From NCBI GenBank assembly GCA_030041985.1, contig JASIAM010000090.1:1-42579 (forward strand): a stretch of 42,579 nt of DNA. The letters are read 5' to 3'. Positions 3,367-42,579 of the stretch are shown here, in pieces. Each line of letters opens with the position of its first letter. Positions within the stretch are counted from its first letter, which is position 1. The notes beneath the pieces were generated by a model, which saw only the letters and a list, made by a program, of their open reading frames with translations, ran no database searches and was not told the origin of the DNA. This stretch comes from Bryobacteraceae bacterium. GTDB lineage: Bacteria; Acidobacteriota; Terriglobia; Bryobacterales; Bryobacteraceae. A program made the translations under genes and the position numbers.

Positions 3367-3858
3367 ATGAAATTAATCGATTATTGGCTCACTTATCTGG
3401 CGAAGCATCACATCCGGTTCTCTCATTCCACACACCCACGAACAGAGACGGCGTTCGAAACTGCCGATGTCGGCAGGATGCCCCCGCACGACTTTGCCAA
3501 AACGGTCGTCTACCACTGCGACGATGGTTTCGGAATGGCCGTCGTGCCTGCCGACCAGTTCCTGGATTTTAAAAAGCTTACCGATGTGCTCCACGTCTCT
3601 TACATTCGGAAGGCCAACGAAGCGGAACTCGGCAGCCTGTTCCCCGATTGCGAGCTCGGCGCGATGCCGCCATTCGGGAAGAGGTATAACATGCCGGTTA
3701 TTGTGGACCGCGTTGTTGCAGGGCACGACTTCATCACGTTTGTTCTCGGAACTCACCGGGATACGATCAGCATAAGTTTCGCTGATTTCGAGCGCTTGGC
3801 TGAGCCGGTCATTGCCTCAATCGCTGCGCCTTCCGAAGTTCTTGTTTCCAGCAAGTAA
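3367..3858 (+). CDS. YbaK/ProX-type aminoacyl-tRNA deacylase domain protein
   Basis: This 163-residue single-domain protein has the YbaK pattern: an N-terminal helix (MKLIDYWLTYLAKHHIRFSH), then HDFAKTVVYHCDDGFGMAV with the conserved Lys, and GAMPPFGKRYNMPVIVD with the Gly-Pro-Phe loop. The family hydrolyses mischarged aminoacyl-tRNAs in trans. The start at 3367 is chosen for the GGAGA ribosome site and domain fit; an upstream in-frame ATG at 3268 would add 33 non-conserved residues lying across the sigma-54 promoter. Standing among stress genes, it may guard translation accuracy under stress, but that is inference. The substrate cannot be read from the sequence. Confidence 0.85.
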   Translation: MKLIDYWLTYLAKHHIRFSHSTHPRTETAFETADVGRMPPHDFAKTVVYHCDDGFGMAVVPADQFLDFKKLTDVLHVSYIRKANEAELGSLFPDCELGAMPPFGKRYNMPVIVDRVVAGHDFITFVLGTHRDTISISFADFERLAEPVIASIAAPSEVLVSSK

Positions 3859-6488: not shown

Positions 6489-7945
6489 GCTGTACTCTCT
6501 GCCGGCGAAGTAAGCCACCGCCTTACCGCTTCTTTCCAGACTTCCCGATCATCTTCGAGGCGCAAGTTGCTTTGCGCGACTCCGCTGGCAAGCCTGGCCA
6601 AAGCGCCCTGAATATTGCTGGTCTCGTCAAGTAATCGTTCATTAAAGGCAATGAGCCATGCCAGATGAAACTCGGGTGTTACCGGCGATAGGCGATCTTG
6701 TTTTAGCGTTTCGCGCAGCACACGGCCGCGTTTGATCCGAGCTTCGATGGATGCCTCAAGCCGCGCGCCAAATCGCGTAAACACCTCCAGTTCTAGGAAT
6801 TGGAGATAATCGAGCTTCGTGCGGCCCACTTCCTGGGATATCTTGGGGTGTTGAGCTTTACCACCGATCCTAGAGACCGACTTGGTGACATCGATCGCCG
6901 GTAGAAGCCCACCGGCAAACAAAGCCGCATTGAAATAGATCTGGCCATCGGTGATTGAGATTAAGTTAGTGGGGATGTAGGCGGCAATTTCGCCTTCATT
7001 CGTCTCCACGATTGGAAGTGCCGTCATGCTGCCGCCTCCGTGCGGCGCTGCGAGTCGAGTGGAGCGCTCAAGCAATCTGGAATGCAAGTAGAAGATGTCA
7101 CCCGGATAAGCCTCGCGGCCAGGCGGCCGGCGCAATAGCAGAGATAACTCCCGGTATGCCTGGGCGTGCGTTGTCAGGTCGTCGTAAACGATCAAAGTGT
7201 CTCTGCCCTGATTCATCCAGGACTCGGCGATTGCACATCCGGCGAAGGGAGCAAGATATTTGAGCCCGGGCGTGCTAGTCGCCTCGGCCACGACCAAAGT
7301 CGTATGTGCGAGGGCGCCTGCGTCGCGCAGAGCGGCTATGGTGCTTACCACTGCGGATCGTTTCTGTCCGACTAGGACATAGACACACAGAACATTTTTG
7401 TCCCTTTGATTGATGACGGTATCGATGGCGAATGAGCTCTTGCCTAAGCCGTTGTCCCCAATTACTAATTGTCGCTGCCCTTTTCCAATTGGAATCAGCA
7501 CGTCCACAACCTTGTTGCCTGTGTAGAGTGGCTGGTCGACAAAGTCCCGGGCGACAATAGGTGGAGACATCGCCTCCAACTCCTGGCGCCCTGAGCACGA
7601 AGGCAGAGATCCCCCATCGAGTGGAAGGCCGAGCGGATCGACAACACGGCCAAGCAGCGCGTCACCCACGGGGGTACTGAGCCGCTGGCCTGATAAGTAC
7701 GCCGTAGCGCCTGCGGTGAGCGTAACCCCCTCTCTCAGTAGCACGGCGCCAACAGCATCCCGACCGAGCGAGAACACGACAGCTTGGCTGCCATCCTCGA
7801 AATCAACGATCTCGTCCATTGACGCGGAAGGAAGTCCATCGATTCGCGCAACACCATCCCCGATCGACAAAATACTTCCCTGTTCGGTAATCCTTGGACC
7901 GAAGCGGTAGTGGTCCAGCCAATCGTATCGATTACTCGCCGCCAT
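6485..7945 (-). CDS. atpA: N-ATPase subunit alpha
   Basis: This 486-residue non-catalytic nucleotide-binding subunit has the N-terminal barrel up to about residue 85, the P-loop [18 protein letters not shown] (atypical, as common in N-type alpha), and then [20 protein letters not shown] and [12 protein letters not shown], all alpha hallmarks. The start at 7945 (MAASNRYDW) is chosen because it overlaps atpF by only 14 nt and follows a GGCGGGA ribosome site; starting at 8059 would give 38 residues that only shadow atpF. It forms the catalytic head with AtpD. Confidence 0.95.
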
Positions 7946-31171: not shown

Positions 31172-33165
31172 TGCGTAAGCCTCACTCCGGTGCTCACCAG
31201 ATTCGTCCGGAATCCTTCATAAAGGTAGAACGCCTCGCCATATCCGTAGTACTGCCAATCAGCGAACCAACTGACGTGTTTACCAAGCGGCACCCGCAGT
31301 TTCACCACAGGCTGATAATAGCTGGTTGGCCGGCTTCCGGAGGAAATAAATAAGGAACCGCCCGCAGACAGCTTCGGAGCAAAACGCTTGCCATGCGGCC
31401 ACGCCAAATCTATGAGGGCCGTAGCCGTGTGACCCTCATCAAGATAACGCGACACTGCCGGCGCGAGATCCTCCGGCTCCAGATAACCGATGTTGGAAAC
31501 GAGATCGGAACGCGTGTAGGATCCCTGAATGTCGAACATCCCGCTGTTGTGGGGCGACCAGTACAGCGACAGCGACTCCTGGTGCGACGAGTATTCGTAA
31601 TTGGTTCCGGCCAGCGGATTCTGGTTGTCCAGCAGCAGGAAATCGCCGGAAACGCTCAACGTCTGTAAAGGCTGATAATGTACCTGCGCTCTTACCTTTT
31701 CGTAGTTATAAAGGCTGGTGCGGAAATAAACGCCGCTCGATGAAGCTCCTTCCACTTCGCCGGTCAGTGAAATTTTCTGGGACGGCCGGAACGTAACTGA
31801 GCCCACCCCTACATTTTGCCGGAGCTGCTCGTGATCGGCACTCGCCAGGCCCGCGGGAGGCAAGAAGGCATAAAGCGCATCGCCCCACACATACCGATAG
31901 CCACCGCGCAGTGTGAGCTTAGAGGTGGCATCGAAAAAAATGTCGAGCGACTCCTGGTTGTAGTCAGTTACCAATGTGGAATCGATCAGCGCACTGAGCG
32001 CCAGGGGCGATCCGGCGACCAGCAGGGTATCGAGGGCGTTGGAGGATCCGGCGTCGTGCATCCGGTCGGTCATCCAATTCTCTATAATCCGCACGCGCTT
32101 GAACGGCCGGATCTCAGCGCCAGCGCTACCTTGGGTATGTGGCTGCTGGGCGGCGGCGTTGACGATCTCCTGTTCGCTCGAATAGAACAGAATCTGGCTC
32201 TGCAGATAAAGATTACCCCCATCGTACTGCTGGTAGTTGACTTTGGCGTTCGGCTGGCTGTAACTAAACTGGCCGTAGATATCCAACCAACTGGCGGGAT
32301 TCGCAGAGAGCCATCCTTTGCTGTAAGCGCTCGATCCCCTAATTCCGTACGCAGCCAGCAAGTCGCTCAAGTACAACGTCTGGCCAAAGATTGGCGTCGA
32401 GGAATCGCCGGAATTCACCGATCCCGGAGTTTGATATAGGGTCTGATTGCTCTTGAAAACCGTCCCGCCCTCCTCCAGCGTTACCTGGAAATGGGGCTTG
32501 CGAAACCGGATGCCGCCGCGGTACAACTCCGTGGAATCGTTCGCGGTGTTGGGAACCGGAAATTCGTTGCTGTCGGTGACAAAAACGGTCGTGCCGTTGC
32601 CGGAATTCGAATCATGATCCCAAGCCAGGTAGGGGGTCCACCAATTGCCGGGCAAGATATCGAGTGAGAGCGCCGCGACCCGGCGGCGGTTATTAAACGA
32701 TTGCTCGTCCAAAGCGATGCCTTGGCTGAGCAGCGGGTCGGCAAACGACGGCAGTAAATTGAAATAGGCGAAGTCGCGAAAATCCCCGTTGAAATCGTAG
32801 ATGCCGGACTTCTTGGCCTCCACGTGCAGCGATTCGGACGGCTCAGCGCCCCAGGTGCTGGCGCGCACTTGAATCGTGTCGAACCACCGGTGTTTCGGAT
32901 CGGTCAGCGTGAAGTCCGCTCCGAGCAGCTTGGGTCCCGAATGAATGTCGATGATACTGCGATACGCATCGTAGCTTCCGCCGACGGGGCTGACCCAGAC
33001 GTAGCCTAGGTCCACATAACCGGTGAGCCACGATCCCGTGGGCGGAACTGGCGACCCTGTTTCGGCCGCGGGGGATTGCGCGGCCGGAGCCGGATTCCCC
33101 GCAGGTGGAGTCGCCTCCTGCGCCCATACTGGCAGAGCCAACAGCAAGCAGATGAGCGGCTTCAT
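31168..33165 (-). CDS. MtrB/PioB-like outer-membrane beta-barrel
   Basis: This 665-residue protein has a signal peptide (MKPLICLLLALPVWAQ). After a Pro/Ala-rich linker, the rest is alternating beta-strands rich in Tyr, Ser and Gly (for example LTLRGGYRYVWGDALYAF and QTLSVSGDFLLLDNQNP) to a C-terminal strand NLVSTGVRLTQ. Length and its place between two decahaem genes point to the MtrB role: an insulating barrel around the MtrA-type wire. The N-terminal CxxC of Shewanella MtrB is not present. The start at 33165 overlaps the decahaem stop as ATGA. Confidence 0.85.
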   Translation of the reverse strand: MKPLICLLLALPVWAQEATPPAGNPAPAAQSPAAETGSPVPPTGSWLTGYVDLGYVWVSPVGGSYDAYRSIIDIHSGPKLLGADFTLTDPKHRWFDTIQVRASTWGAEPSESLHVEAKKSGIYDFNGDFRDFAYFNLLPSFADPLLSQGIALDEQSFNNRRRVAALSLDILPGNWWTPYLAWDHDSNSGNGTTVFVTDSNEFPVPNTANDSTELYRGGIRFRKPHFQVTLEEGGTVFKSNQTLYQTPGSVNSGDSSTPIFGQTLYLSDLLAAYGIRGSSAYSKGWLSANPASWLDIYGQFSYSQPNAKVNYQQYDGGNLYLQSQILFYSSEQEIVNAAAQQPHTQGSAGAEIRPFKRVRIIENWMTDRMHDAGSSNALDTLLVAGSPLALSALIDSTLVTDYNQESLDIFFDATSKLTLRGGYRYVWGDALYAFLPPAGLASADHEQLRQNVGVGSVTFRPSQKISLTGEVEGASSSGVYFRTSLYNYEKVRAQVHYQPLQTLSVSGDFLLLDNQNPLAGTNYEYSSHQESLSLYWSPHNSGMFDIQGSYTRSDLVSNIGYLEPEDLAPAVSRYLDEGHTATALIDLAWPHGKRFAPKLSAGGSLFISSGSRPTSYYQPVVKLRVPLGKHVSWFADWQYYGYGEAFYLYEGFRTNLVSTGVRLTQ

Positions 33166-34061
33166 TTGAGTAGGTTCCGATCCACATAGCTGCCATGAAT
33201 CTTCTGATGGCAGACTGTGCAATTCTGAAACACGGGCGAACGCAAATCGTGAAATGATGGCGGTACCACGCCCGCGACTTTCACTGGTGACGACGGGAGG
33301 TTCGCGTGGCATTCCAGGCAGACAAAGCGGACCTCGGCGCGTGTCAGCATTCTAGGATTGGCGGAGCCATGCGGTTCATGACACGCCGTGCAGCCTTGGA
33401 ACCGCATGGGGGCGTGCTCAAACGCAAATGGCCCGCGCTTGTCGCCGTGGCATTTGAAACATCCGGGATCGTTGGCCGCGAAGGTTTGCTGCATGGCCGG
33501 GCGGGTGCTGCCATGTGGATTGTGGCAGTCCACGCAGCTCATGGCGCCTTCGGGCAGTTTGTGATGGAAAGGCCGCTGAAATTGGGCCCACACGTTCAGG
33601 TGGCAGGTCCGGCACTGGTTGACGATTGCGTCCGCCTGGCGAACTACGAGAGGCTGATCGCTCGAATGCACTTTGTGGCACGCAGTGCAGGCAATCTGAT
33701 TCCTGGCGTGACTGCTCTCCAGATGCCCGGCCTGCGTCGGCTCATTCAAATGACAAGTGAGGCAGAGTTGATCGGCGGCCGAAGGCTTTAGTTTCGCGGG
33801 GTTCCGGATGTTATCGGCCGCAGGCCCCTCGGCGTGCATCTGTCCCGGGCCATGACAGGCCTCGCAGGCTCTGCCCTGCCATCCGCGCTTCGCGCTGGTC
33901 TGGAGCACATCATGCGGGGTCTTGGTGAAGGTGTTATAGATATCTTCGTGGCAGATCTTGCAGGTGTCCGCGCCGGCGTAGCCTTGCGGAAGCCCTTGTG
34001 CGGCTACCCACCGGGGGGCAGCCGCCAAGAAGAGACCGAGCACCACTACGTGCCATCGCAT
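33162..34061 (-). CDS. DmsE/MtrA-like periplasmic decahaem cytochrome c
   Basis: This 299-residue protein has a signal peptide (MRWHVVVLGLFLAAAPRWVAAQ) and ten CxxCH sites spread evenly to the C-terminus, with many extra His for bis-His ligation (SSHARNQIACTACHKVHSS, FHHKLPEGAMSCVDCHNPHGS). This is the length, haem number and spacing of the MtrA/DmsE family, the wire held inside the MtrB barrel. The start at 34061 is preferred because it gives a clean signal peptide and does not overlap the preceding gene. Confidence 0.93.
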   Translation of the reverse strand: MRWHVVVLGLFLAAAPRWVAAQGLPQGYAGADTCKICHEDIYNTFTKTPHDVLQTSAKRGWQGRACEACHGPGQMHAEGPAADNIRNPAKLKPSAADQLCLTCHLNEPTQAGHLESSHARNQIACTACHKVHSSDQPLVVRQADAIVNQCRTCHLNVWAQFQRPFHHKLPEGAMSCVDCHNPHGSTRPAMQQTFAANDPGCFKCHGDKRGPFAFEHAPMRFQGCTACHEPHGSANPRMLTRAEVRFVCLECHANLPSSPVKVAGVVPPSFHDLRSPVFQNCTVCHQKIHGSYVDRNLLK

Positions 34062-34099
34062 AATCTGACAGAATTGGCTTCTAATTCGTTCCTGGCGGA

Positions 34100-36325
34100 C
34101 TACGGCGTATGTACCGAGTCGACGGCGAACTGTGCGCCGGAGGAGTGACATACGGTACAGGACTCACCCAACGAGTCGGTTGAGGCGCTGCCGCCATTTT
34201 CCAGGAAGTGAGATGCCTCGGCCTCGGAAACATGGCATCCACTACAAGCGGAAGAAGTGGGCTGCACCGGATTGATCCAACCCTGGGGATCGGTCACCTG
34301 ATTCAGCCCGGTCATTAACGGAAGGTCGTTTTGCTCGGTACTGTTCACGTGGCATGTCGCGCAGTTTTGCATGTAGGTGGCGTTTCCCGTGGGACTCATG
34401 ACCGGGAAGAGCGTTCCCGAGAAGTTGTTAATGCTTCCTCCAAAGCCCACGACGATGTAGGGATTTTTGGGGTTGTCAGCCGCGGTATTCACACCATTAT
34501 GAAGGCGGTGAACCAGCAGATTGAAATTGATGCCCTGTGCGGGCTGCGTGGAATACGGCGCCGCCGCGGTGGCGCGAGTGCCGGCATCCGTGTTTGACGG
34601 ATTGTGGCACAAAACGCAGTACTCCGTGTTGTTGCGCAAGTTGCCGTGCAGGGAAAGCGCGATGTGGCATTGATTGCAGTTGGTTTCGGCCACCACGGTA
34701 CGGCGGGCCGCGACGGGCGAACCATCCACAGAAAAATTGAGTACTGGGTTCGTAGCGCCCACCTCGACCACCGTCTGAACGGTGGTGCCCTGCAACAATT
34801 GCGGCACGGTCACATTCTCACGCGCTTCGCCACCGATGGTGTAGGTTCCCGTTGCGCCACTCGGAATGGCATGGGTGAAAGTGTACGTGCAAGCGCCCGA
34901 GTTGCAAGTCGCACCCGTGGCGCTTTCCGTCACGTAGCCCGGCGTGCCGGAAGTGCCGCTTCCGAAGCTCGTGTAGCCGTAATCAGTGGTAGGGCCGGCT
35001 ATGGTGAATTGCAGAGTAGTGGCCTGCGATAAGGGGATGTTGTTTCCCTTGTCATCCTGCAGAGTAAAGCTGACTGTAGGCATCTGCCCGGCGAGGTTAT
35101 TGGTGATGCCGGTGATAGCGAGGTTGATGCCGGGCAGCAATGTATCCGGATTCTGCGGATAAGTGGCGGCAGTATCGGTGGCCACGACGTGCGCTCCCAT
35201 GATTGATGCATCAAAGGGCATCTCACCCTGCGGAATATGGCAGTTGGCGCACTGCGTATCATCCGTTTGGATTCCGCCGGGATGGTTGGCGCCGGTTGCG
35301 AAATTGACGTCATCGTGACACGCGCCGCATGCGACGCGGTTCGGTTGCGTCAGGAATGCTTTCGCTTGCGCCGGGACGCTGGTTGCGGTCGGTTGGGCGA
35401 CACCCGTGCCTGGCGTGGGGCTGGCGGATTGGCTGTGGCAAACTTCGCAACGTTGAGGAGTGGCGGGATCGACAACCGTAGAAAAGTTGGTGAGGACGTT
35501 ATTGAAGCCCACAATCTGGTAAGGGACCCCGGGCGTCGTGGACGTGCCAACCACGCTGGGCAACTGCGAGCCCATATGGATCTTGTGATAAAGGACCTTC
35601 GCGTCGAGCGAATTGCCTGTAACCGGGTCGGCATTTTGGGGTTGATGGCAGAGGACACACATTTCAGTGCCATGGGCGTAACCGCCGTGGAAAGCCAACT
35701 GGTAGTGGCAGGCGTTGCAACTCTGTGTGCGGACGACGTCGCGGGTGACCGTAACCGCCGAGCCATTGGGAACGAAGTTGTAAGTGGTACCGGCATAGCT
35801 GGTGCCAAGGTTGAATGGCGTGAGATTGCGGTTGCCGTCAACTGCGACCGTAGTGGTCACAGTGGGGTCGAAACCCGTGGGAGCCTGGGCTTGAAATGTG
35901 TATTTGTATTGGCCCTGACCGAGGGAAGTTAGCATCCCGCCGCCCAATTCGAAATCGGGGCGAGTGATGGTGCCAAGCGCCGCTCCTGTAGCCTGGGCAG
36001 TCGTGTAGGCCACATATTGTGCCTGGCCCTGGGGAATGTACGCGGCGACATAGGCAAGAGAAATGACGCCTGGCGTGGTGGCGCCCGTCGCATCCAGAGG
36101 CAGTCCATTCGGATCGGTAAGGGTATATGTCACGCTGATGGCCCCAGCGCTGGAGATGCTGGCCGAATTAATAGTGATCAATAAACCCGGAGTCACGAAA
36201 TCCACTGAGGATGCGGCTAGGCGCTTACTGGTCTGCGCCGTCAAGCAAAGAAAGATCAGTGCGGCGAACGCCGCTATGCGTATTACAAGACCAAGCCGTT
36301 TCTTGTGCTTAACCGATTTTTCCAT
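34100..36325 (-). CDS. OmcA/MtrC-like decahaem outer-surface cytochrome c
   Basis: This 741-residue protein has an N-terminal export helix (residues about 10-30) without a good lipobox (IFLC lacks a small residue before Cys). It has two halves of the OmcA/MtrC plan, each a beta-rich domain followed by a five-haem domain: CNACH, CVLCH, CEVCH, CGACH, CANCH and then CNQCH, CVLCH, CATCH, CSGCH, CTVCH. The family hands electrons to minerals, electrodes or partners outside the cell. A weak ribosome site (AAGGTG) supports the start at 36325. A hairpin-forming sequence lies just upstream. Confidence 0.93.
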   Translation of the reverse strand: MEKSVKHKKRLGLVIRIAAFAALIFLCLTAQTSKRLAASSVDFVTPGLLITINSASISSAGAISVTYTLTDPNGLPLDATGATTPGVISLAYVAAYIPQGQAQYVAYTTAQATGAALGTITRPDFELGGGMLTSLGQGQYKYTFQAQAPTGFDPTVTTTVAVDGNRNLTPFNLGTSYAGTTYNFVPNGSAVTVTRDVVRTQSCNACHYQLAFHGGYAHGTEMCVLCHQPQNADPVTGNSLDAKVLYHKIHMGSQLPSVVGTSTTPGVPYQIVGFNNVLTNFSTVVDPATPQRCEVCHSQSASPTPGTGVAQPTATSVPAQAKAFLTQPNRVACGACHDDVNFATGANHPGGIQTDDTQCANCHIPQGEMPFDASIMGAHVVATDTAATYPQNPDTLLPGINLAITGITNNLAGQMPTVSFTLQDDKGNNIPLSQATTLQFTIAGPTTDYGYTSFGSGTSGTPGYVTESATGATCNSGACTYTFTHAIPSGATGTYTIGGEARENVTVPQLLQGTTVQTVVEVGATNPVLNFSVDGSPVAARRTVVAETNCNQCHIALSLHGNLRNNTEYCVLCHNPSNTDAGTRATAAAPYSTQPAQGINFNLLVHRLHNGVNTAADNPKNPYIVVGFGGSINNFSGTLFPVMSPTGNATYMQNCATCHVNSTEQNDLPLMTGLNQVTDPQGWINPVQPTSSACSGCHVSEAEASHFLENGGSASTDSLGESCTVCHSSGAQFAVDSVHTP

Positions 36326-36339
36326 TTTGGCACCTTTTG

Positions 36340-36361
36340 GGCTGCGCGAAATCACGCAGCC
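36340..36361. repeat. 22-bp palindrome copy before the OmcA-like gene
   Basis: Perfect arms GGCTGCG/CGCAGCC enclose CGAAATCA. It is nearly identical to 28018-28039. It lies in the spacer between the monohaem gene and the OmcA-like start, on the transcript of both. Confidence 0.7.
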
Positions 36362-36377
36362 TTGAGTGATTTCGCGC
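36344..36377 (-). promoter_or_regulatory. 12-bp inverted repeat (hairpin) upstream of the OmcA-like gene
   Basis: GCGCGAAATCAC (36344-36355) and GTGATTTCGCGC (36366-36377) are perfect inverted repeats around a 10-nt loop. They overlap the palindrome at 36340-36361, so two alternative hairpins can form. There is no T run, so this is not a classical terminator. It may process or stabilise the mRNA between the first and second genes, or be an operator. Confidence 0.55.
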
Positions 36378-36408
36378 AATGCCTCGCCTGACTTGCGATT
36401 ACCGAGTT

Positions 36409-36798
36409 TCACAAACCTCTGCAGGGCCTCGGCCCGCCCTCATCCTCATATGCAGGCGGCGGCGCGTCTCTCGGGTCCCCGGCAACCGCTCCTTCCCTCA
36501 CCCACTGCTCGATCGTGTCGATCTCTTGTAGAGAGAGTCCGCGCTCGTGTTCGAAGGGCATCGCTCCCATCCAAGGCGGCATTTTCGAGGTTACCACAGC
36601 ATGTTCGATTGCCTCGGCCCACGGCCGGGTTTGCCGATAGGACAAGAAAGATATCGGTGCGATTTGACCGGGCCGGTGGCAACTCAAGCAGTGCTCCTGC
36701 ATGATCGGGAGCACGTCCCGATAGTACGTGACGTTGGTCAGCCGCACGGTTCCCCAACCGCCGGCGCCTACGATTGCAGCGAGAAGTATAAGTCTCAT
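36409..36798 (-). CDS. Membrane-anchored or exported monohaem cytochrome c
   Basis: This 129-residue protein has an N-terminal hydrophobic segment (MRLILLAAIVGAGGWG), then VTYYRDVLPIMQEHCLSCHRPGQIAPISFLSY, the pattern of the cytochromes that begin with YxxDVxPIxxxxCxxCH, and later SKMPPWMGAMPFEH and SLQEIDTIEQWVREGA. There is one haem. It is the first gene of the EET cluster, with a strong GGGGAGG ribosome site and a sigma-54 promoter directly upstream. Its C-terminal tail is Pro/Glu/Asp-rich. Its place in the electron chain is unknown. Confidence 0.87.
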   Translation of the reverse strand: MRLILLAAIVGAGGWGTVRLTNVTYYRDVLPIMQEHCLSCHRPGQIAPISFLSYRQTRPWAEAIEHAVVTSKMPPWMGAMPFEHERGLSLQEIDTIEQWVREGAVAGDPRDAPPPAYEDEGGPRPCRGL

Positions 36799-38234: not shown

Positions 38235-38292
38235 GTAGGCCGCCTGCCTTACAAGCAGGAGATCCGCGGTTCGAGCCCGCGACCGCCCACCA
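38235..38292 (+). tRNA. 3' fragment of tRNA-Val (anticodon TAC), possible attachment site
   Basis: From 38235 the sequence follows tRNA-Val. The anticodon arm CCTGC-CTTACAA-GCAGG is perfect, a 5-nt variable loop follows, then a perfect T arm CGCGG-TTCGAGC-CCGCG, and ACCGCCC-A-CCA at 38282-38292. The 5' side does not supply the matching acceptor strand (GGGCGGT expected) or a D stem, so this is not a working tRNA. Such 3' ends are what integrases leave at attachment sites, and the cas3 island begins just to the right. The rest of 38049-38440 has no gene I can support. Confidence 0.7.
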
Positions 38293-38362: not shown

Positions 38363-38384
38363 CGTATCAAAACCGTATCAAAAC
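38363..38384. repeat. Tandem 11-bp repeat beside the tRNA fragment
   Basis: CGTATCAAAAC occurs twice in direct tandem, followed by a partial third start. It lies between the tRNA fragment and cas3. Two copies only, with no spacers, so it is not a CRISPR array; it may be an integrase arm site. Confidence 0.5.
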
Positions 38385-38440: not shown

Positions 38441-41400
38441 TTACACGCTTCGGGCCGGAGTGAAACACCGGTACCGTCCAGAAGGCATCACGATCCTCGA
38501 TTGAAACACCGTCGAAATACCGATCTCGCGCCTTCTGGTTGGCGGCCATTGCTCGGCGTCTGTGAGCGGAACAGCCAAAAGAGAACGCACCACGTCTAAG
38601 CCAATCGGGTGTGTCCAAATCGGCCAACTCCACGAGCGGCCGTCGCCTTTGCCATCGAAACCCGCTTGACCCGCTTGACGATTCGGCACGAGCGGAAATA
38701 GGGGGAGACCCTCTACGGCCAAAAAATTCGCGCCCGGGTCGGCCACCGGCGGGTTGTTCGACTTAGTGGGGTCGGAGGATTGCAGAGCATATTGCCGTTT
38801 CTCGTCCTGCGTATCCCAGCGCATCGATACGGCGCCGGTTGAATAACGCCAGCCTGTAAACAGTGAGCGTTGGAGATCCGCTCGCGTGCAAATCTCTTTG
38901 AGCTGACGCAACATGCCCACAAAAGCCTGCTGTCCCGCGGTGAAGTCGAAACGGGTCCTGAATGCGATCTGATTTCCCTCTTCTTCATCCGAGGAGCCGG
39001 TTTCCGCCGCCCACACCGCGGCGAATTCCGCCAACACTGAAGAGCGCTCCCTAGCGGAACAGCAGAATTGCCGAAAGGGATTGACCGGGAATTTCAGCTT
39101 ATCCTTCCAGCTCGCCTCACCCTTTTTGTTCTTCGGGCTGGCGGTAATAGTCGAGGCGAGGAGATCGTCGGAAAACATACCGGTGAGGTCCAAGCCATTG
39201 CGCCACAACTCCTCACAGATGCGCGCCTCATCCAGCGGCTCGGCGGTCCAAAGCGCCGGTCGCCAGGCGCCCATGCGCTGTTCCCAATTTAAGCGGGGAT
39301 GGTATTGCGGAAGGATTCGCGTCAATAGGCGCAGTGTGCCCAGAGCCGCAAGGAAAGCAAGCGGATTGGCGCCGTCCAGAGCGTTGAGAGCAATGCGATG
39401 GGAGACCGCGGGGGCTTCCGACGGGGCTACAGAAGTCATGGGAAGCGCCTTCGGCCGAACCACGCGCCCTCGGCTTGCTTCCCAGTCGGCCAGCCGAAAT
39501 ACGCTCTCAAGATAAGCCAAACCCCACCACCCGTAACGCCGGGTCAAGCGCCAGAAGCGCTCCGGCACGCCAGAATCGATGCGGTGTACCGGCGTCATTG
39601 CTCCCCGCTCCGCCCCGCTGAGGATATCTGAAATGCCGGCGGCGTTCAGGCATAGGTCACCCGCGCTGCCGTCCGCGACCAGTTTGTCAGGCATCGGTGG
39701 CGCAAAGGGACGCGCATATCCGTGATGGCTCGCAATCAGGTGCAGCACAAGCTCCCATGAGTCCTGATCGGCCGGCCCCAGCCCGAAACGCTCCGCAAGC
39801 TGCATGGACAGAAATTCATGGCGAAAACCTTTTGGTAAGCGTGCGTCCTCGTTGATTTCCTGCCAGGTCCGCTTCCGGCTGGGCAACGCGGCCGATTTGG
39901 CGAGAGGTTCGAGGGCGGACATCGCTGTCCAGTCGCCGCCGCGGAGCAACAGTTGGAACCGCCAATCCAGCTTGCCGAGGTCGTGAGCTTCTGCCGCGGC
40001 CAGAAAAGCTTCTACGAACGCATGGTCCGCACAGCGCGCTGCAAACTCCGCAGCGAAGCCCTTCACTCGGTCCGTGTGTGCCTGCAAGGAAACAGGCTCG
40101 GTGGATTCGGAAGTCAGATCGTCGGCGTCCGCGAACAGATCGTCCTCATCCACACTCCCCAAGTTCGTCTTCCCGATCAGAACCACACCGCCGGCGGGAT
40201 GCTCCTCGATGTGTAGGGGGGCCGCCAGCAAATCGGCAACGGTTTCCGTCAGCCATTTGGGTAAAGGACCGGACCTTTCCTGCTCAGGCCCTTCTATGCT
40301 CGCACTGTCCTCGTCCAGAACCGCGCCCAACGCCTCCAGCAGTTCACCCCTCTCCGGGCCGGACTCCGCCACACGAATCAAATCGGCCACCGACGCGTGA
40401 CTACACAGCGGCTCGAGCACGGACCGATGCACCCGAAGAACAGCCCGCCCCCGGGCCTGGCGGAATGCGCGCTCCGCCAAATCGAGGCGGTCCTGCCCCA
40501 GTCCTTCGGCGCCGCCGGTCTCCTGACCCAGTTCGAAAATTGCTTGCTTGGACGTTAAGACCAGTACGTCATTCGGCCGCACGCGCCCAACGTCATCCGT
40601 CACCTCAGAACGTTCACGCCCCCTCCAAATCACGAACCTGCAGCGGGCTGACTTCCGCGAATCGCCGGCACCCGCGTCCAGACGCGCGCCCTCCACATCG
40701 CCGCCTACGTCTTCGGCTTCGGCTTCTTCCAGAAGCCATGCCTTCAGGCGGTGCATGGGCACTGTCAGCATTTCCGGGCTTGTCGGCGGAACGATGGATA
40801 AAGTCTCTACGTCGCTATCGTCACCTTGGAGGTCGGCTCGGAAAGTCACGCGAACCTCGGCAGCCGCCGGCCCCTTCCCGTGCAGGAAAAGACTGATATC
40901 CGGTGCCGGAACCGGGCGGGGCGAAGTCTGGCAAAGCAGGTCCAGATGCGCTGGCAATAAAACAGGGGCCTCGTCCGATGGAGCCAGGAGTTTCTGTAAG
41001 CCCTGCGGATCCGCCGTCCGCAGCGCGCCGACACGTTCGTCCATGGCCACGTAGCCGAAGTCCACAGTCCCCTCGGCCCTCTGCTGCTCGGGCTTGCTGA
41101 GCCAGGTCCAGGTTTCATAAAGCGCTTTGCCGTAGATCGGGTCGCCGTTGCCCTTCGGCTGCTTCGTGGCGCTCGCGCGGATAAGAATTGCCGCATAAGA
41201 TTCCGCTAAATCGCCGAGTCGGTCAAGGCGGCCGAAGCGTTGTCTGAGCGAGTCGAGGCTCGCGCACTCTGTCACGAGCGAATCGAAACTGAAATCCGCC
41301 CCCACTTCCAGGCACTGCGTGGTAACAACGATAACCGGCTTTTGCAGGGCTTCGGTAGAACCGGCTTTGAGCACGCGCTTCCACCGGCTCATCAGCGCAT

Positions 41401-42327
41401 CCCGATCCAACGGGCGTAGGCGGCCTGTCAGGAGGACCACATCGGCGGAGTCGCCGCATTCACCACGTACCCGGCTGGCGATGTTGCGAGCCGTGGCTAC
41501 GCGATTCACCATCACCGCTACCCGCTGCTTTCCTTGATCCCTAAAATTCAGAGCCAGCCTGGCTGCCTCCGCCTCGAATTGGCCGTCACCCCCTTTCACC
41601 GGCTTTTCCAGCTCGGCAACCTTTCGCGCTGTGATCCGCTTTTGAAGACGTGGATGACCGAGCGCGGCGGCGCGCTCCGAAGCCATTGGGAACACCGCCG
41701 TTTCTTCGATGCTTTCCGGCGGCGTTGCCGACATTACGCAGCAGAAGAATGGGGTCTCCACCACCCGTTCGCTCCAGGGAGCGCGGCGGTATTGTGCCAC
41801 TGCCTCCAGCGTCTGCATAAATGGCATGGCGCAGTGCGCCTCATCCAGAATAATCATGCTGTCGTGAGCCACGAGTCCGGCGTAGATACTCGCGGTCTCC
41901 GGGCTCCGGCCGTAAGCTCCGAACAGCAGCGCCGACCCCACCTGATCGACGGTTGAGCAGATGATCGTAGGCTGGCTGGGACAACGCCCCCAGTGCTTCG
42001 AAGTCCAGGTGCCGCCGCGCAGCCGCGCCACCGCGAGCGGCCTTGTGGTGCCCGAGAGCGAGCAAAGCGCGCGAGCCACTTCCCCGAGTGATCCCCCGGC
42101 GGCCTCCGCGAGCTTGGATGCAAGCGTCTCGGCTCGCTCGAACGCCTCATCCACCACAACCCGGCGATCCACAACAAACCAGATCCGGCGTGGGAGGCGT
42201 TTCTCAGCACCCCGATCCGCTGTTGCGGCGAGGCCGAACACAGCGGCGTCAAGACAGGCAGTCTTGCCACTGGCCGTTGGCAAATTGATAGCCCTCGGCC
42301 ACTCGCCCGTTGCCGCGCGCTCTGCTA
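38441..42327 (-). pseudogene. cas3: Cas3 helicase-HD with C-terminal extension (type I-G-like), 5' end cut off by an IS630 element
   Basis: About 1295 residues remain. The helicase starts just before Walker A (WPRAINLPTASGKTACLDAAVF), with motif II IILDEAHCAMPF and later CLEVGADFSFD and QRFGRLDRLG. The HD nuclease comes after the helicase (AEAHDLGKLDWRFQ, FRHEFLS, IASHHGYARPF, residues about 760-900), the order known from type I-U/I-G Cas3. The last 300 residues (HRIALNALDGANPLAFLAALGTLRLL to FTPARSV) fit the Cas3-extension family of type I-G as I recall it. Upstream the frame is open to a CTAG where the IS630 end begins, so about 20-30 N-terminal residues are lost; the TTG at 42283 is not a believable start. 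Other cas genes would lie beyond the window. Confidence 0.85.
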
Positions 42328-42579
42328 GTGCTTAATTGCATAAATTAATAATCGTATTTTGAAGCTGGCTGCCCTTGACCTCCGCTTGCGCCAGCGGAAC
42401 GGCTTGGCGCGCTCGTTGTGCCTCCGGATGAAAGCTTCAATAGCCTCACGCAACTGATCTTTGTTTTTGAAGCTTCCGCCGTTGAGTGTCTTGCGCTGGA
42501 GCAGGCTGAAGACGATTTCAATCTGATTCAGCCAACTTGCAGATGTCGGCGTGAAGTGAAACTGGACTCGACCCTCGAA
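42325..42579 (-). CDS. IS630-family transposase, C-terminal part
   Basis: The minus frame is open from the window edge and reads HFTPTSASWLNQIEIVFSLL followed by QRKTLNGGSFKNKDQLREAI and FIRRHNERAKPFRW. This is the end of the IS630/Tc1-type DDE transposase, with the last catalytic Glu in NQIE. It stops with TAG at 42327-42325, whose bases come from the target-site TA and the flanking cas3 base. The 5' part is outside the window. Confidence 0.88.
   Translation of the reverse strand, partial: FEGRVQFHFTPTSASWLNQIEIVFSLLQRKTLNGGSFKNKDQLREAIEAFIRRHNERAKPFRWRKRRSRAASFKIRLLIYAIKH
42326..42579 (-). mobile_element. Right part of an IS630-family insertion sequence inside cas3
   Basis: The junction with cas3 is at CTAG (42325-42328), the preferred target of IS630, where TA is duplicated. 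The element's end begins GTGCTTAATTGCATAAAT at 42328, is AT-rich unlike its surroundings, and leads into the transposase gene. The other end is outside the window. Confidence 0.75.

Follow-up and report, generated by a model that had tools for sequence, protein, structure and literature searches.

The window analysed here, 42,579 nucleotides (nt) long, is the entire contig C49 of a draft Bryobacteraceae genome (6.0 Mb, 355 contigs, 98.17% complete, 1.79% contamination), and at its right edge lies most of a gene, cas3::cas8g, in which the Cas3 of a type I-G CRISPR-Cas system is joined to a Cas8g-type large subunit. The gene is the last of a csb1-csb2-cas3::cas8g operon that continues on a second contig, C219 (19,400 bases), and the assembly contains both an interrupted cas3 junction, formed with an IS630-type element, and an uninterrupted one. 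We consider it probable that only some of the population sampled carries the gene broken by the IS630 copy and that the encoded complex represses its own locus through a CreR-like guide. An earlier note on this DNA had centred on the broken cas3; the wider locus is more interesting than that break.

The fusion gene and its operon

The gene was traced on the minus strand as a single open frame of 1296 codons, bounded by an in-frame TAA at 42334-42332 and the stop codon at 38443-38441, and residues are numbered from the TTG at 42283, the first in-frame start past the insertion. Residues 1-938 match the type I-G Cas3 model TIGR02621 at 617.6 bits (cut-off 400; model positions 37-854 of 854); the GSU0051-type Cas3 that serves as a test for type I-G is present, and the motifs TASGKT, DEAH, SATPP, QRFGRLDR, AHDLGK and HHG are kept. 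The helicase C-terminal domain (PF22590, residues 253-355) precedes the HD domain (PF18019, residues 750-857). The earlier note had this order right; since TIGR02621 itself runs that way, helicase then HD is, judged by the model, the ordinary arrangement for type I-G Cas3.

The extension that follows (residues 966-1278) matches NF049934, the "Cas3-extension family", at 227.7 bits (cut-off 65), and the ALGTLRLL segment from which it had been called Cas-like is the first conserved block of this domain. Together the TIGR02621 and NF049934 matches bear out the proposal of a large fused type I-G Cas3. The extension had been thought to lack a described function; a family model exists, and several predictions identify the domain as a Cas8g-type large subunit. 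The PADLOC Cas8g profile PDLC01514, which stands for the large subunit of the effector, matches it with an E-value of 2.1e-63, and an hhalign comparison with an alignment of two Csx17 proteins gave 96% probability (E 4e-9, 254 columns), pairing extension columns 1-278 with Csx17 columns 8-308 of 667. NF049934 also matches, below its cut-off, the N-terminus of two Csx17/Cas8g1 proteins that TIGR04113 recognises above cut-off. An AlphaFold2 model built from 24 sequences (mean predicted local distance difference test score 76, predicted template-modelling score 0.82) was compared with the PDB by Foldseek, where the I-G effector 8b2x was the one match with E below 0.001 (E 4.8e-5). In VIA-align the same chain reached Z 17.7 with a root-mean-square deviation of 4.1 over 258 residues (chain positions 12-380), the next folds being the type I-A Cascade 7tr6 (Z 8.0) and type I-B and I-C chains (Z at most 4.4).

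The extension, 315 amino acids long, aligns to the N-terminal part of Csx17 only, and the Cas11-like helical C-terminal half is absent. A passage of PMC9638904 handles Cas8g residues 1-381 as the N-terminal part, and since the fold match covers 8b2x positions 12-380, the extension would be Cas8g without its Cas11-like half. Large subunits of I-G are described at another place in that paper as differing in size among three variants, and a short Geobacter protein was described as an apparent deteriorated Cas8 (Makarova 2011, PMC3150331). As for Cas8g2 (GSU0052, TIGR04106), one protein (L037) links the two families, below both cut-offs (TIGR04106 76.5 of 125 bits, NF049934 32.1 of 65 bits), and its direct hhalign comparison with the extension was weak (probability 4, E 0.0097). 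Pfam gave no match for the extension. An unrelated family is ruled out by NCBIfam, PADLOC, profile comparison and fold, all of which point to Cas8g. Designed ankyrin repeats and their fusions were returned when the extension profile A1 was compared with sequences of solved structures (11 sequences, best E 5.4e-6), and are read as an effect of composition because the fold search did not repeat them.

Both csb1 and csb2 lie upstream of cas3 on C219, pass their models and have frames without stops, so that other cas genes do stand beyond the right edge, as the earlier note had supposed. It had let its proposal depend on the C-terminal domain not being of an unrelated family and on other cas genes being near; both were checked, and no unrelated family and no lack of cas genes was found. 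Among the tests for type I-G, the csb2 (Cas5-Cas6) signature, csb1/Cas7 and the large subunit, here the fused extension, are all present. A second I-G locus of the same genome, on contig C15, shows the same gene order, csb1, csb2, cas3 and then an unfused extension gene, and its Cas3 is 40% identical to that of the window.

We compared 33 loci on genome contigs with an extension alignment and 20 further stretches; the C219 locus is referred to as L009 and the C15 locus as L010. The extension directly follows cas3 wherever both models match, and the order csb1-csb2-cas3-extension holds wherever all four do. The name of NF049934 shows that NCBI curators had already linked the extension to Cas3; unlike the gene described here, the domain is in most of the loci seen encoded by its own gene immediately behind cas3, and fused copies make up 3 of 52 extension rows: the window, L041 (Acidobacteria RI_231) and L056 (Victivallales). 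On a Cas3 tree of 51 rows made by a quick method the fusion label needs three changes, and the well-supported branches force three, which is compatible with three gains as well as with one gain plus two losses. L009, extension matches of at most 200 amino acids and Cas3 matches of at most 600 were excluded from both the tree and the fusion count. A plasmid search yielded 27 records with relatives of the fusion protein, none at 60% identity or above. In another locus (L066, 8535-9688) the cas3 match is split over two short frames, which cover model parts 17-177 and 836-1007 only; a large internal part of this cas3 is lost, and an intact-looking extension gene follows.

The IS630 junction and its uninterrupted counterpart

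An IS630-type element contributes its 3' end as the terminal 251 bases of the window. Its transposase fragment passes DDE_3 (35.1 bits, cut-off 28.6) and stays below the cut-off of NF033545 (52.3 of 100 bits) because it is only 84 amino acids long. Further copies of the element lie on C251 (84% identity, query 1-255) and C78 (87%, query 194-255). All three stop at CTAG, and since the C251 and C78 copies are alike up to this point and their flanks diverge beyond it, as at a TA-type insertion site, the junction in the window marks a genuine end of the element, whose other end lies outside the contig. The IS630 cut at CTAG reported by the earlier note is therefore real, and it is the detail that needs correction: the insertion lies about 40 nt 5' of Walker A, whose residues are retained downstream, and severs the first 29 codons. 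Conserved P, W and Q columns 5' of the insertion, each present in 45 of 48 aligned Cas3 rows, are thereby cut off the window protein.

C219 carries the identical 127 nt from CTAG into cas3, followed by the start of cas3 instead of the element. This start overlaps the end of csb2, and an open frame of 1323 codons results when C49 and C219 are joined through the uninterrupted junction. The 5' end of cas3, which the earlier note proposed to seek beyond the right edge, is thus found on C219, where the frame continues into an uninterrupted start. No contig joining the far junction of the element to csb2-side DNA was found in the genome. A subpopulation carrying the IS630 copy is the simplest reading of the two junctions, and the gene is most likely broken by it in just a fraction of the population sampled, or in one strain out of two.

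It follows that inactivation of cas3, as claimed earlier, is not established, the uninterrupted junction having been assembled as well. The suggestion that the system may bind targets without degrading them is also unlikely, since the insertion lies before both the nuclease and the large subunit: in the IS630 allele both would be lost, and in the I-G system of Thioalkalivibrio sulfidiphilus stable, near-complete target binding needed both Cas8g and Cas3 (PMC9638904). That IS630 has killed cas3 for good, leaving a fixed pseudogene and a dead locus, appears unlikely to us. The window does end inside the element, neither cas1 nor a matching array was found in the genome, and the window Cas3 deviates at 5 of the 134 columns on which at least 90% of the 48 aligned rows agree, against a row median of 2 and a maximum of 13. 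Yet the uninterrupted junction was assembled with 127 identical nucleotides and an open frame across it, every helicase and HD motif sought is present, and csb1 and csb2 are above their cut-offs and free of stops.

Several properties of the assembly, like the deviating columns, count against our reading. Another contig-end overlap measures 197 nt, so the length of 127 nt alone proves nothing and is only plausible as a word length of the assembler. The empty-site form is seen over no more than the 127 nt on its own contig, and polymorphism, strain mixture and misassembly would each account for the two assembled junctions. Still, we regard it as quite unlikely that C49 and C219 derive from separate strains or from two copies of the locus, so that their overlap would tell nothing about one gene. 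The number of contigs, the level of contamination and the varying contig-end overlaps (127 and 197 nt) speak for such an origin, but the 127-nt stretch occurs at these two places only in the genome, the frame and the operon order run on across it, and matching tRNA-Val repeats stand on both sides in the same orientation.

Mini-CRISPR units and their targets

The draft genome gave no match to the adaptation gene cas1 (PF01867) in a search that was positive in 9 of 14 control genomes; in the set of eight genomes, this one included, cas1 was found in six. For this reason, and with the draft state of the assembly in mind, the locus is filed as an effector locus and not as a complete system. The two-handle repeat pattern was found in 6 of 8 genomes searched, with no occurrence in this draft genome or in one of the same family (G016); some of the matches in a further genome (G017) look like chance. 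Downstream of cas3::cas8g, the remaining 38 kb of the window yielded no array of at least three copies. The array that the earlier note proposed to seek beyond the right edge was likewise not found: C219 carries a mini-CRISPR instead, and the genome shows no array of this repeat type. A 36-nt stretch repeated 72 nt apart in the C15 locus (L010, 606-713) was rejected as an array, as it lies inside the extension gene, near the end encoding the C-terminus.

The mini-CRISPR on C219 consists of a first repeat (3561-3596) with the 8-nt handle ATTGAAGC and without the repeat hairpin, a spacer of 38 nt and a second repeat (3635-3670) with an 8-bp hairpin and an altered end. The unit on C15 is of the same build, and its second repeat ends in a T run that scores as a terminator. 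Because Csb2 of type I-G leaves a handle of 8 nt and binds to the hairpin on the 3' side (PMC9638904), the repeat parts that are kept are those that a mature guide would need. Two degenerate handle and hairpin repeats outside an array and beside a cas operon, a feature of CreR type, are present at both loci. Rfam, at the gathering threshold, found no family in the window or C219. A scan of 24 regions upstream of csb1 found six units with a score of at least 24, a value reached by 12 of 1500 random regions; one (L053, an ordinary array edge) was dropped, which leaves those of C219, C15, L041, L056 and L063. A second scan, of 56 whole loci with a cut of 23, gave 18 distinct isolated sites, of which 7 were kept, adding L102 and L105, and 11 were set aside by eye, among them reverse-strand arrays or array edges (L053, L058, L060, L067, L072, L100, L106) and lone low scores (L065 and window position 6925). 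At L102 a small frame between the mini-CRISPR and csb1 (6687-6920) looks Cas2-like by eye only, no search having been made.

The spacers were then compared with their own surroundings (0.75-0.94 kb), each being scored by its best match preceded by TTN, the protospacer-adjacent motif (PAM), over 15 seed positions (1-17 without 6 and 12). Six units reached high scores (C219 12, C15 12, L056 13, L063 13, L102 14 and L105 12), which were attained per locus by no more than 1 of 371 decoys, spacers taken from real arrays, and by 0-4 of 2000 shuffles. When all 17 positions were used and the PAM condition dropped, the same site ranked first in the same six units, each time preceded by TTN, and each spacer except that of L041 suits its own region better than the other six. 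Over the six units the matches at positions 1 to 17 number 6, 6, 5, 6, 5, 0, 6, 6, 3, 5, 6, 1, 6, 5, 5, 3 and 3, so that position 6 is matched in none and position 12 in one. In a passage of PMC8501985 these two positions of CreA were found not to matter. The targets lie 5' of the first repeat, within some tens of bases, except in C219 and L105, where they are near the start of csb1 instead (in C219, the first ATG in the frame of csb1 is 133 nt away); the targeted stretch would be the promoter or control region of the cas genes. Two weak promoter-like sites on C15 overlap its target.

Since the spacers match the adjacent region behind TTN and spare positions 6 and 12 as in CreA, the mini-CRISPR units seem to be CreR-like self-targeting guides. 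Passages of two papers name CreRs for types I-B, I-E and V-A (PMC13131331) and for "Type I and Type V-A" (PMC12737573), and the literature found, in the parts available, reports no CreR-like guide in type I-G. The likeness to CreR comprises a degenerate unit beside the cas operon and a PAM-flanked seed match in a local non-coding region; the units described here, whose function is putative, differ in belonging to type I-G and in that no ordinary array was found alongside in this genome. By analogy with CreR RNAs, the complex most likely uses the mini-CRISPR to repress its own locus. Csb1 (Cas7) and Csb2 (Cas5-Cas6) would carry the guide RNA and the Cas8g part would read the target DNA, with the Cas3 part delivered in cis rather than recruited; the only guide seen for the C219 locus is the one-spacer mini-CRISPR, and through it the complex would act on its own locus.

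The self-regulatory reading has points against it as well. The L041 unit has no target (score 7 of 15, with 295 of 301 decoys and 1986 of 2000 shuffles as good), and the spacing of the L105 unit is abnormal. The 15-position score was adopted only after a score for unbroken seed runs with a PAM, by which 4, 0 and 4 of 200 shuffles were as good at L010, L056 and L063; this earlier score failed to single out C219 (110 of 200) or L041 (172 of 200). The promoter scan gave no sigma-70-like promoter for the C219 unit, and transcription and processing of the guide and repression of the cas genes are putative. Assembly or binning may have removed an array and cas1; contig C15 ends about 0.5 kb past its extension gene. 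TIGR04113 found no csx17 in the genome, a weak test of absence, as it was silent in every control genome too and a home-made Csx17 profile matched only L113 and L114, the source of its own two proteins.

An alternative is that the unit is an antitoxin of CreTA type that holds down a toxin, for example a VapC-like PIN gene, and does not regulate cas genes. In passages of PMC8501985, CreA is likewise derived from two diverged repeats, with an 8-nt 5' handle and a 3' handle, and has a seed of positions 1-5 and 7-11 with 6 and 12 free and, in one studied module, a TTC PAM. Beside the C219 unit stands a vapBC-like pair (L009, 3867-4597) with a PIN gene (PF01850, E 4.3e-11) and a first frame without a Pfam match, an 85-bp fragment 92% identical to part of the PIN gene lies beside the C15 unit, and CreT toxins can be tiny RNAs. 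We nevertheless find this improbable, for unlike in CreTA, where the promoter of the toxin is the target, the C219 target is on the csb1 side and not at the adjacent PIN gene, and C15 has a PIN fragment only, yet keeps both unit and target match. The view that the mini-CRISPRs are functionless, eroded trailing ends of former arrays is very unlikely: terminal CRISPR repeats are often degenerate and neither cas1 nor a matching array was found in this genome, but L041, L056 and L063 have arrays plus a separate unit, the parts of a mature CRISPR RNA are kept (an 8-nt handle in the first repeat, a hairpin in the second), the target matches carry TTN and spare positions 6 and 12, and in six loci hardly any ordinary array spacer (at most 1 of 371 per locus) does as well.

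Flanking repeats, related systems and meaning

We return to the locus as a whole, with CreR-like self-regulation as the preferred reading; its features are listed in Table 1. The two copies of the tRNA-Val 3' half span about 8.8 kb that hold the entire cas locus together with the PIN gene, a possible antitoxin frame without Pfam match and the mini-CRISPR, and an intact tRNA-Val is on contig C185. ARAGORN found no whole tRNA in the window, C219 or C15, the flanking copies being 3' halves. The region looks like an integrated island; no integrase was identified in it, not every frame having been searched. Elsewhere, C219 encodes a large nSTAND1 NTPase with WD40 repeats, cut at the contig end (L009, 15529-19398), and the window carries multihaem cytochrome genes with an MtrC/MtrF-like domain (33162-36412).

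Table 1. Features of the cas3::cas8g locus and of the second I-G locus on C15 (positions without a contig name refer to the window)
Feature	Position	Strand	Basis or remark
cas3::cas8g fusion gene, 3' 1296 codons and stop	38441..42331	-	open reading frame; TIGR02621 and NF049934 matches
Type I-G Cas3 part, helicase then HD	39470..42283	-	TIGR02621 and motifs
Walker A segment LPTASGKT	42283-42260	-	motif
Fused extension, predicted Cas8g-type large subunit, N-terminal domain only	38444..39388	-	NF049934, PDLC01514, hhalign with Csx17, 8b2x fold
CTAG, IS630 insertion site	42325..42328		shared end of element copies
IS630-type element, 3' end and last transposase codons; remainder off contig	42329..42579	-	NF033545, DDE_3, genome copies
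127-nt exact overlap with C219:1-127	42202..42328	-	contig comparison; C219 continues into unbroken cas3 5' end
csb2	C219:211-1761	-	TIGR02165, 280.8 bits (cut-off 45)
csb1	C219:1767-3155	-	TIGR02570, 69.6 bits (cut-off 38)
Mini-CRISPR, C219	C219:3561-3670		upstream of csb1; degenerate repeat pair
Candidate target, C219	C219:3288	+	PAM TTA, 12/15; csb1 side
Mini-CRISPR, C15	C15:7200-7307		upstream of csb1; same build as C219 unit
Candidate target, C15	C15:7181	-	PAM TTC, 12/15
54-bp 3' half of tRNA-Val(TAC)	38239..38292	+	53/54 repeat at C219:4783-4836, same orientation
22-bp exact direct repeat	38363..38384	+	second copy C219:4656-4677; inside tRNA repeats

Fusions of Cas3 with Cse1 may occur in some type I-E systems, for which the literature searches gave no confirmation. 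In the 2025 classification, a passage mentions that fused Cas3 domains were removed from Cas8 and Cas10 models (PMC12669027). Compared with such fusions of Cas3 parts and large subunits elsewhere, the present one belongs to type I-G and places a whole Cas3 N-terminal to the N-terminal domain of Cas8g. The locus resembles the I-G system of T. sulfidiphilus (8b2x; PMC9638904) in csb1/cas7, csb2, Cas3 and the Cas8g N-terminal fold, and in a 36-nt repeat with an 8-nt handle and a TTN PAM. Unlike in that system, a single protein here comprises Cas3 and the large subunit, the Cas11-like half of Cas8g is missing, and neither cas1 nor an array was found. The Cas3 of T. sulfidiphilus associates through Cas8g, according to a passage of the same paper, which elsewhere calls I-G the least well understood type I subtype.

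A wider proposal we make only tentatively, as it seems doubtful on present evidence: I-G effectors, Cas3::Cas8g included, may be kept in this acidobacterial genome without cas1 or array and with CreR-like units as their sole guides, the complex here serving as a regulator or addiction device on a tRNA-Val island, and CreR self-regulation in I-G would then extend across several phyla. Scattered as it is, the fusion of Cas3 with the large subunit provides evolutionary evidence, apart from biochemistry, for Cas3 being a permanent component of the I-G effector that docks on Cas8g, and it suggests that a large subunit can do without the Cas11-like half. The fusion would make up a compact three-protein DNA-targeting complex, and our reading of the mini-CRISPR units, if true, extends self-regulation of CreR type to type I-G.

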